A stretch of 64,000 nt of DNA from an uncultured Clostridia bacterium (GTDB taxonomy: Bacteria > Bacillota > Clostridia > UBA1212 > UBA1255), in the NCBI GenBank assembly GCA_904420095.1, contig CAJFUB010000031.1, forward strand, positions 62,001 to 126,000. The letters run 5' to 3'. Positions 53,481 to 55,870 of the stretch are shown here, in pieces; the stretch's first letter is position 1; every line of letters begins with the position of its first letter. The position numbers were made by a program, and so were the translations under genes. Under the pieces are notes generated by a model that saw only the letters and a list, made by a program, of their open reading frames with translations, searched no databases and was not told where the DNA came from.

Positions 53481-54041
53481 TGGTGAAGTGCCATAATAAA
53501 GTTGTAACAGCAGCGGCTAATAAGATATAATCAATCTTACAAAGAAAAGAGGAACACATTATGCCACAAAGTTACACGGCAGAATTAAAAAAGAAGATTG
53601 TCCGTCTCCATTTAAAAGAAGGACGCACGTACAAAAGCATTACTGCGGAATACGGCGTATCGAAAGCCGGTATTTCCAAATGGTGCAGTGAATTCAGTGA
53701 AGAATGCCAAGCCAAAGCCGATCTCAATCCTAATACCCTGAACGAAGCAGAACTTATGAAAGAGAATTTAAGGCTCCGCAGAGAACCGGAAGAGTCAAGG
53801 AAAGAAAATCTTTTCATAAAAAAGCGGCGGTATTCTTTGCAAAAGAAATCAATACTTTGAAAAACGAGTGTACAAATTGATACGAATTCGCAGCAGAAGA
53901 AGCTTGCATACGTTGCCTACAACCACGTACGCCCCACAGCTTCAACAGCGATCGCACTCCATACGAGGCGAGAGGGCCAGCCTAGCTGCCTAGCCATATT
54001 TTTAGCCACAAGTGTTACAAAAATGCTTGACCACTACACTA
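53481..54041 (+). mobile_element. collapsed IS3-family insertion sequence
   Basis: The two ends (53481-53520 and the reverse complement of 54002-54041) match at about 26 of 40 positions, including TTGTAACA and a distal GGCTAA, consistent with IS3-type terminal repeats starting with TG. Between them lie a frameshifted orfA and only the last 25 or so codons of orfB. A full IS3 element is about 1.2-1.5 kb, so roughly half has been lost. No clear target duplication was found. Confidence 0.72.
53561..53860 (+). pseudogene. IS3-family transposase OrfA, frameshifted
   Basis: The N-terminal helix-turn-helix (TAELKKKIVRLHLKEGRTYKSI, GVSKAGISKW) is that of IS3 OrfA proteins. At a run of six A (53818-53823) the frame slips: the open frame ends in KKRRYSLQKK, whereas the -1 frame reads AAVFFAKEI, the expected family sequence, and stops at 53880. 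An extra A is the simplest explanation. AGAGG precedes the ATG. The remainder of the element is deleted, so transposition is not expected. Confidence 0.8.
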
Positions 54042-54190
54042 ATTGCCAACGTATAAGCAATGTGGTCGCTACGGGTTTTCCTGTGGCAGCTCCCCCTGTT
54101 TCTGCAGGAAAAATTTTTTTGAAAAAACAATGAACCAAGAAGCTATTGTTGCGACCTTGTAGGTGAAAGCTTTCAAAAGAGGTACCGAAG
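53861..54190 (+). pseudogene. orfB tail of the IS3 remnant and region before the sigma gene
   Basis: From 53918 the plus strand reads YNHVRP and then, after a one-base deletion near 53933-53937, HSFNSDRTPYEAR with a stop at 53983. This is the conserved C terminus of IS3-type OrfB. The IS end follows at 54041. The remaining 150 bases contain no gene that I can see; the sigma factor ribosome site AGAGG is at its end. Confidence 0.7.
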
Positions 54191-55870
54191 ATGCAAAACA
54201 AAAACCTAGAAAATTACATAGAATTCCTGTTATCTGCAGCCTTACAAAGATGCAGAAATATATACGATGCTGAGGATTTGACGCAGGAGACCCTTCTTGC
54301 AGCTCTGTCATATATGGCACGTGGCAAAGATATTCAAGATGTAAAAGCGTGGCTTCTCGTTGTTATGGGGCAGAAATTTAATGATATGCTCCGTAAAAGG
54401 TATAAAAAACCAATAGTCAGTATTGGAGATGGCTTTGATATCCTTGATGAAAAGGCAATAATCCAATTAAATGATGAAGACGACGAAGCTGAGAACGTTC
54501 GTAAAGCAGTTGCATACCTTGCCAAAAACTATCGCGAGGTTATCGTGCGGTACTATATGAACGGTCAGAGTGTAAGTCAGATTGCATCAGAACTCAGCAT
54601 TCCGGAGGGAACTGTAAAAAGTAGGTTATATCTCGGCAGGAATCATGTAAAGAAAGGAATCAGCGATATGGAAAAATACTCAAAGCAAAGTTATTCACCT
54701 ATAACACTTCATATTTCTTGCAGTGGAAATCCCGGATTAAACGGAGAGCCGGTCACTCTTATCAAAAACGATCTTATCGCCCAGAATATCCTGTGGCGGG
54801 CTTACTCTAAGCCGGTAACTATTGAGGAGATTGCATTGTCTATCGGTATTCCGGCAGCATATGTTGAGCCTATTGTACAAAAGCTGGTAGACGGTGAACT
54901 AATGAAGAAGGTTGGGAACAAAGTCTATACTGACTTTATGATCCTGACTTTGGAGGATAAGGAAAAGCATATTCCTGCGCAGAAAAAGTGTGTACATGAG
55001 AATTTTGAGTTGTTCTGGAATGCTATCGAAAAAGCCCTTGTGAAGCTACGTCAGTGTGCGTTTTACGAAAGGTGTTCCTTTGATGCAAGGAACTCCCTGG
55101 AACTGTATGTTGCATTCAACTGTCTTGATTATGGAACCTATATGACTTTCTCCGAAATATTCAATACGGAGCAGCAATTCAAGGAACGTCCTAACGGAGG
55201 ACGATGGATCGCCTTCGGCCACGTTAATTTTAAGGAGTTTGATTCCAAGGAGCATGTTGAGCTGTTAGCACATTCTTATTCAGGTGAACGTATTGCAAGG
55301 TTTGATAAATATGCCAATAGCGAGGTGCTTGAAATACATGTGTATGGTGCAGACGGATTCCCTTGTTACCCATATTATCATTCGGCAGATTATACATTTT
55401 TCCCTGAGAATACCGATATTGATGCGGAGATTGCGAAGCTGCTCTACATTATGCACATGGGCATTGATCCTGAAAGTGTAGGTCTTAATCCTGAATATCT
55501 CAAGGCAATTCCCTGGCTCACAAAATGTAAGATCTTTCGTGAGGAAGAAGGAAAACCAGTCATCAACATTCCTATTCTCCATAAGGATGAGGCACAAGCT
55601 TTGTGGAACCTTTGCACGGAAGCAAAGTACGAAATGGTAAAAGACCTGAAGGAGCTCCTTGCTGAGTTTTACAAAGGAAAGAAGCAAGAAATACCTGCGC
55701 ATCTGGATAGCGTTCCTCTGCAGAAACAATATCTATATGCAGATAATGCTATGCTTTTTGCTACAATAAGAGAGGCTATTTCGAGAGGAAAGCTGCATGA
55801 TGGTAATTATGATAATGATAGAAACGGCGTTCATCAACCACCTTGTCCTATGGTTTTAGTAATTGGATAA
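54191..55870 (+). CDS. ECF-type sigma factor with large C-terminal extension
   Basis: The 559-residue protein begins with sigma-70 region 2 (about 5-75, with YDAEDLTQETLLAAL) and region 4 (about 100-155, with YREVIVRYYMNGQSVSQIASEL and IPEGTVKSRLYLGR). A further 400 residues follow. The first part (about 185-250) resembles a winged helix (PVTIEEIALSIGIPAAYVEPIVQKLVDGELMKK); the rest, about 280-559, is of unknown function with many aromatic residues. Normal ECF sigma factors end near 180 residues, so the tail may sense a signal or replace an anti-sigma factor. The gene is AT-richer than its neighbours and flanked by two transposase remnants, suggesting transfer. Confidence 0.85.
   Translation: MQNKNLENYIEFLLSAALQRCRNIYDAEDLTQETLLAALSYMARGKDIQDVKAWLLVVMGQKFNDMLRKRYKKPIVSIGDGFDILDEKAIIQLNDEDDEAENVRKAVAYLAKNYREVIVRYYMNGQSVSQIASELSIPEGTVKSRLYLGRNHVKKGISDMEKYSKQSYSPITLHISCSGNPGLNGEPVTLIKNDLIAQNILWRAYSKPVTIEEIALSIGIPAAYVEPIVQKLVDGELMKKVGNKVYTDFMILTLEDKEKHIPAQKKCVHENFELFWNAIEKALVKLRQCAFYERCSFDARNSLELYVAFNCLDYGTYMTFSEIFNTEQQFKERPNGGRWIAFGHVNFKEFDSKEHVELLAHSYSGERIARFDKYANSEVLEIHVYGADGFPCYPYYHSADYTFFPENTDIDAEIAKLLYIMHMGIDPESVGLNPEYLKAIPWLTKCKIFREEEGKPVINIPILHKDEAQALWNLCTEAKYEMVKDLKELLAEFYKGKKQEIPAHLDSVPLQKQYLYADNAMLFATIREAISRGKLHDGNYDNDRNGVHQPPCPMVLVIG

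Follow-up and report, generated by a model that had tools for sequence, protein, structure and literature searches.

How an ECF sigma factor is controlled when it has no partner protein is an open question, and the gene family described here, multicopy and from gut Clostridia, offers a ready test case. One member lies in a 64,000-nucleotide stretch of DNA from an uncultured Clostridia bacterium (the window; contig CAJFUB010000031.1, positions 62,001 to 126,000), where an earlier note, made from the sequence alone, had pointed to a sigma factor fused to a long tail.

The sigma factor and its family

The gene and its sigma part were mapped as follows.

54191 to 55870, plus strand: open reading frame with ATG start, 559-aa ECF sigma factor with a winged-helix tail at its C-terminus
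54212 to 54400, plus strand: sigma region 2, residues 8-70 (Pfam PF04542, Sigma70_r2, E 4.4e-8)
54491 to 54646, plus strand: sigma region 4, residues 101-152 (Pfam PF08281, Sigma70_r4_2, E 2e-12)

Regions 2 and 4 both passed the Pfam cut-off, with no region 3 between them; the NCBIfam model TIGR02937 (sigma70-ECF) scored 68.4 bits on the window protein (cut-off 42.9), and the family profile matched solved ECF sigma structures. The window protein is an ECF (group IV) sigma factor with a large conserved extension behind region 4, the tail, of 394 aa.

The own genome (2.56 Mb, 50 contigs) yielded 11 matches to the window protein: the window gene and six other full-length copies (L003-L008, 518-578 aa), making seven in all, one tail-only copy (L002, 364 aa), and a rest of shorter or ordinary sigma matches. 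The tail profile was found in 12 of 16 genomes of the taxonomic family, 16 of 31 of the order and 33 of 391 sampled genomes of the class Clostridia; it was nearly always fused to a sigma part, in open frames mostly of 500-608 aa, and the window protein shared about 18-24% identity over its whole length with other subfamilies. Plasmid pRUMAL02 of Ruminococcus albus 7 carries a whole family gene (WP_013483710), annotated only as sigma-70 family. The loci fetched, which were those returned by the searches and not a random draw, held 83 non-redundant family ORFs, 51 of them with sigma part, tail and more than 200 upstream bases; one of the 51 (L119, no promoter) does not figure in the counts of palindromes and charge, which therefore have 50 rows.

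Between the window gene and its 90% identical relative (L010), dN/dS was 0.12 for the sigma part and 0.12 for the tail, so that both were under selection for most of the divergence. Because the architecture recurs in many genomes, and purifying selection on its two parts is equal, the fusion is more than chance. The sigma factor fused to a wHTH-bearing tail, as first described, is thus borne out by the Pfam matches of regions 2 and 4, an ArsR/SmtB-like match of a tail segment (below), and the recurrence.

Other arrangements were also seen. At locus L011 (own genome, contig C28; 6502-8435), a tail-only family protein of 364 aa is encoded 2 bases behind an AraC-type regulator gene and precedes a secreted protein of 1897 aa and proteins of 527 aa and 301 aa, by eye a pilus/adhesin operon; this tail-only protein may work in trans. 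In the ECF sigma factors encoded at loci L058 (3994-7227) and L057 (3378-6554), 1058-1077 aa long, a different tail of about 850 aa is present; the L058 gene is flanked on either side by a family gene of the same strand. Locus L055 (2195-14700) holds two family copies, nearly identical and with matching neighbours, plus the start of a third, either a tandem duplication or an assembly artefact.

A predicted promoter common to the family genes

Upstream of the window gene, the following elements were located.

54095 to 54108, plus strand: terminator-like stem ahead of the promoter (the count of such stems in the region is at chance level)
54131 to 54136, plus strand: -35 element TGAACC of the predicted own promoter (motif search)
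54152 to 54161, plus strand: -10 element CGACCTTGTA of the predicted own promoter (motif search)
54178 to 54182, plus strand: putative Shine-Dalgarno-like AGAGG (sequence reading)

The search for a target promoter upstream of relatives, proposed in the earlier note, found a common type, AACC-N16-CACTATA, directly 5' of the own gene in 50 of 51 members; the window version is TGAACC-N16-GACCTTGTA. Unsupervised motif EM on the 51 upstream regions returned cACTATATaggTGAAAGc with a log-likelihood of 497, compared with 93-104 for shuffled sets (n=5), and the motif scored above 5 in 50 of the 51. The AACC box stands at a single fixed distance (16 nt between, ungapped alignment), with an A/T tract further upstream. 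A score of at least 8 was reached by 47 of 51 family genes, an in-sample figure because the motif was trained on the same genes in which its occurrences are counted, versus 1 of 330 random ORF upstreams. Of 17 ECF genes that lack a full tail, two also reached it, namely L010, whose copy is broken, and L179, a short locus that holds a family copy; none of the remaining 15 did. The full pattern of the window promoter occurs once in the window, where 0 were expected, and once in the whole genome. ECF promoters carry AAC in the -35 and CGT in the -10 element (PMC3426412, available part); the family has its AACC box at the fixed distance, and its -10 element is ACTATA/GACCTTGTA, not CGT.

In partial Mantel comparisons, the -35 box tracked region 4 (partial r 0.19), and the -10 box tracked region 2 (0.155) and region 4 (0.152), with 0 of 200 permutations as high in each case. 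Tracking of the -35 box extended to the C-terminal part of the protein (partial r 0.153; 1 of 200 permutations as high), a point against the reading that we favour. Tracking of boxes and regions is as an autoregulated promoter predicts, and is not proof. Since nearly all members carry the same promoter type directly before their own gene, each probably controls itself: regions 2 and 4 would bring RNA polymerase to the own promoter (the TGAACC-N16-CGACCTTGTA region, 54131-54161), producing positive feedback.

Searches for a wider regulon

Autoregulation could be only one part of a normal regulon of surface, transport or stress genes that the scans missed, as ECF sigmas generally autoregulate (PMC3426412, available part). 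Within the own genome, the general promoter pattern matched the window gene, three paralogs and one site inside an ORF (C47:5594). At 2 mismatches there were five sites besides the window gene, against one for the control, an excess that speaks for targets elsewhere; a site on contig C44 overlaps the start of an ABC-transporter-like ORF (named by eye). Nevertheless, regulon searches in the own genome gave no convincing target outside the family genes. A looser pattern run over 16 genomes gave 29 sites versus 9 for a reversed-pattern control; 20 of the 29 lay in loci matching the family HMM (L178 weakly, with a 193-aa frame), as did 11 of 11 sites with 0-1 mismatch, and no non-family site with 0-1 mismatch was found in the 16 genomes, which argues against such a regulon.

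A target promoter without the downstream TGAAAG would escape these pattern scans, and the promoters of a wider regulon may indeed lack the palindrome described below. The scan with the bare -35/-10 pattern gave 21 sites against 22 for its control, so that a small regulon could be neither seen nor excluded by it. Nor was there a common neighbour gene, anti-sigma or other, beside five orthologs whose contexts were inspected by eye, in line with the earlier remark that no anti-sigma gene accompanies this sigma factor. Beyond the family genes, then, no regulon is visible to pattern searches, and small regulons with plainer promoters are possible; a normal regulon is in our judgement a credible alternative, though somewhat improbable.

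A palindrome behind the -10 box

54164 to 54175, plus strand: perfect palindrome of 12 bp, TGAAAGCTTTCA, at the start site; predicted to be a DNA operator

A perfect palindrome of at least 10 bp lies just behind the -10 box in 26 of 50 members, whereas 500 shuffles gave a mean of 0.62 and a maximum of 3 (shuffled controls here and below were base or two-base shuffles); the next downstream stretch held none of at least 10 bp in 49 members. The centre falls at +16 in 16 of 30, and the words vary by clade (TGAAAGCTTTCA, TAATCATGATTA, CAGAAGCTTCTG and ATCACCGGTGAT). A palindrome of at least 8 bp is missing in 20 of the 50: 6 rows of a clade whose -35 box is of the CCAATGAAA type, 6 of a clade in which GTCAG-type boxes predominate, and 8 others.

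An RNA hairpin was considered and rejected: repeats with gap 0 alone were enriched (arms of at least 5 in 26 members, versus 0-2 members at gaps of 1-10), and the leader fold had a mean z of -0.03 (n=50), with a z of 1.06 for the window leader. Because the enrichment sits at gap 0 and leader RNA folds no better than shuffles, the palindrome appears to be a DNA binding site for a dimer. A separate excess of palindromes of at least 10 bp was seen at -45 to -24 from the ACTATA box (13 of 50 versus 2.6 shuffled), and consists at least partly of A/T tracts.

Two winged-helix modules and an acidic helix in the tail

54770 to 54946, plus strand: first winged helix, residues ~194-252, ArsR/MarR-like fold (low-confidence model, structure match)
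54854 to 54892, plus strand: residues 222-234, the acidic 'recognition' helix within the first winged helix, where Y224, E226 and L232 are conserved
55394 to 55582, plus strand: second winged-helix-like module, residues ~402-464 (hhalign of tail halves, model secondary structure)
55583 to 55783, plus strand: long helices behind the second module, residues 465-531 (secondary structure, low-confidence model)

The profile search of the tail that had been suggested gave nothing over a curated cut-off in Pfam, NCBIfam or PDB, with the tail alone or with 25 aligned tails. Sub-threshold Pfam HTH matches in the window tail were to Rrf2 (206-238), TrmB (206-242) and winged-helix families (~195-243); the best PDB profile match had E 0.009, the hits being short HTH or unrelated chains. 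In the tail-only paralog, the homologous wHTH segment passes the Pfam MarR cut-off (24.6 bits). The structure model of the full-length window protein is weak (mean pLDDT 52.7; 36.1 for the tail alone). In this low-confidence model, residues ~190-252 form helices 195-206, 211-218 and 222-234 and strands 239-241 and 244-246, and residues ~179-260 match ArsR/SmtB and MarR folds with Z 8-10 (for example 4ggg_A: Z 9.8, rmsd 3.3, 79 aligned residues); the Foldseek list also shows SelB winged helices, ScpB and methyltransferases at E 0.04-0.3.

When the two halves of the tail were aligned as profiles (hhalign), they matched with 95.7% probability (E 8e-9, 62 columns); on this profile evidence the tail contains two related winged-helix modules. 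The "large unknown domain" of the earlier note is therefore unknown in the sense that it has no database match over cut-off, and needs amending in that it contains a further winged-helix-like module, akin to the first one. The long helices at 465-531, as modelled, are a possible dimer or sensor part.

The charge of the first winged helix bears upon its role. Helix 222-234 is negative in 49 of 50 members (mean -2.80), with Y224 and E226 almost invariant, whereas the same helix in 21 MarR domains from related genomes averaged +1.24 with one negative. Negative charge is also found on helix 210-219 (47 of 50 members) and on the second module's helix (39 of 50); wing 1 carries a mild positive charge (mean +1.2), and the region 4 helix of the sigma part is basic (mean +3.1). 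The neutral or basic recognition helix fit for DNA, a mark of DNA-binding MarR/ArsR regulators, is absent from the first winged helix of the family, which probably does not bind DNA; a protein-facing role is favoured. The proposal that the protein binds promoters in two ways is accordingly not supported in the form in which it was made, and a second DNA contact through another tail part is possible in view of the palindrome at the promoter.

It could still be held that the tail is a true second DNA-binding module, which sits as a dimer on the palindrome while the sigma part sits on the -35/-10 elements, and acts as own repressor or specificity factor. ArsR/MarR-like proteins bind palindromes as dimers; the tail has a fold of this kind, two winged helices per chain and the mildly basic wing, and the family has perfect palindromes at a near-fixed place. 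Against this stand the acidic recognition helix, the negative helix of the second module, and the want of specific covariation between the palindrome and the first winged helix: as reader of the palindrome, the latter gave a partial r of 0.024, with 66 of 200 permutations as high (partial Mantel), and was not supported, leaving the tail as a candidate reader of the palindrome. We regard a second DNA-binding module as rather unlikely, and hold that the tail probably does the job usually left to a separate inhibitor protein, with the first winged helix as what may be a built-in anti-sigma.

Mobility, acquisition and decay

53561 to 53860, plus strand: IS-type transposase OrfA remnant in the upstream flank (Pfam HTH_Tnp_1, E 9.9e-9, over cut-off)
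54036 to 54056, plus strand: 3' end remnant of a lost upstream paralog (ending TLIANV-stop; sequence reading)

The window gene has a GC content of 0.41 between flanks of 0.51. The "flanking IS remnants" once reported amount to one upstream; the one downstream ORF tested showed no IS. The remnant of the upstream family gene is cut off, with the OrfA remnant before it; the same 3' end (LTTLIANV-stop) lies upstream of the ortholog in L010 and resembles the C-terminus of the paralog L006. The L010 copy is 90% identical to the window protein although YebC of its genome is only 55% identical, whereas a same-genus genome with 86% identical YebC has a family copy of only 62% identity, a contrast which supports horizontal transfer of the window gene. 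Along with the low GC and the IS remnant, it upholds the suspicion that the gene was acquired. A TnpV-like gene (by eye; L010 1957-2334) lies directly downstream of the L010 ortholog.

No full-length match to the window protein was found in 50,697 phage records; nine of them match its sigma part. Of 73 plasmid records, 20 were listed, and within this set only pRUMAL02 reaches well into the tail, to residue 292, and none of the matches listed covers 80% of the window protein. Single-protein scans of IMG/VR recovered the relative L071 in one of seven and none in six, and a promoter DNA pattern scan of IMG/VR found nothing. In L071 (4953-6902, a viral-contig record), the family gene runs for about 385 residues and then continues into a type I restriction S-subunit-like end (by eye), near a recombinase-like gene.

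A recent acquisition could also be in decay, with no present function in its own genome. The low GC, the IS remnant and the lost upstream paralog alongside would fit this, as would broken relatives: L010 has an in-frame stop, L022 a frame shift near the C-terminus, and fragments occur in the own genome at C34, C39 and C10. On degeneration in relatives, which the earlier note had raised against itself, the evidence is divided, as the orthologs L021 and L009 are intact. Moreover, the window ORF is open, its promoter and palindrome are intact, and the low dN/dS applies to sigma part and tail alike. Decay is in our view very unlikely.

Proposed mode of control

We favour, at a probability of roughly 60%, a stand-alone, self-regulated ECF sigma factor whose fused tail replaces the anti-sigma factor and whose feedback is gated by the palindrome as operator. 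The tail, with its two related winged-helix modules and long helices, would stand in for a separate anti-sigma protein: the acidic face of the first winged helix may dock against a basic DNA-binding surface, that of region 4 or that of region 2, and the docked tail would hold the sigma part off until a cytoplasmic signal or partner frees it. The palindrome TGAAAGCTTTCA would be the operator for a dimeric protein, possibly other parts of the tail, that gates or limits the feedback. What the computations establish directly is the architecture and how widely it occurs, the paired modules of the tail, the acidic helix, the promoter type, the palindrome and the horizontal transfer; action at the own promoter, for which the tracking speaks, autoinhibition, the signal and the binder of the palindrome are inferred.

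A bolder version makes the gene a one-gene mobile switch, in which the sole promoter of the sigma factor is its own, the winged helix is an internal DNA mimic that turns the sigma part off, the palindrome is a private operator, and paralogs are insulated by their own -35 box and operator; we consider this version doubtful. Were the acidic winged helix indeed such a mimic, a DNA-binding fold would have been reused as an inhibitor within one chain. For the self-regulated sigma factor that we favour, the seven full-length paralogs of the own genome, with predicted own promoters and mostly their own palindrome, make specificity, orthogonality and control by the tail directly assayable, and orthogonal, self-contained sigma/promoter pairs would be useful parts for laboratory circuits.

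Comparison with known systems

The two-module winged-helix tail, the acidic helix and the promoter-plus-palindrome unit were not found in the literature searched; the main ECF classification paper lay outside this scope, and part of this may be published. In that literature (including the available parts of PMC8103513 and PMC3426412), no description of the family was recognised beyond a line on ECF262 in PMC8999054. Table 2 of that paper lists ECF262, with representative SFB89493.1 from Ruminococcus albus, as a group with a regulatory extension of other kind. A member of our family resides on an R. albus 7 plasmid, and by this likeness, compared by description only, the family is perhaps the published group ECF262. 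The earlier note had asked if the tail is a known ECF-group domain with a described role: the group may thus be known, and the available part of PMC8999054 describes no role for its tail. According to the same source, 15 of 26 ECF groups with extensions remain unstudied.

ArsR/SmtB and MarR repressors resemble the family in the fold of residues ~179-260 (low-confidence model) and in having a palindromic site nearby; they differ from it in that the family has an acidic recognition helix and is fused behind a sigma factor. Fused C-terminal regulation as such is already known for ECF41, ECF42 and ECF238 (PMC8999054, PMC3426412; available parts). The C-terminal extension controls the sigma factor in ECF42 (TPR tail) and ECF238/CorE (Cys-rich tail) (PMC8999054); unlike ECF42, the family shows no TPR in the Pfam matches of 25 tails, for which 25 of 29 families were listed. 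A close parallel in organisation is ECF41 (SigJ, Ecf41Bli), likewise ECF sigma factors that carry their regulatory extension fused at the C-terminus, lack an anti-sigma gene and have very few targets (PMC3426412). Whereas the ECF41 extension is SnoaL-like (PMC8999054), the window family has two winged helices in a tail of some 394 aa; and whereas ECF41 acts on COE genes next to it, which have a TGTCACA-n16-CGTC promoter, the promoter of the window family stands at the sigma gene itself.
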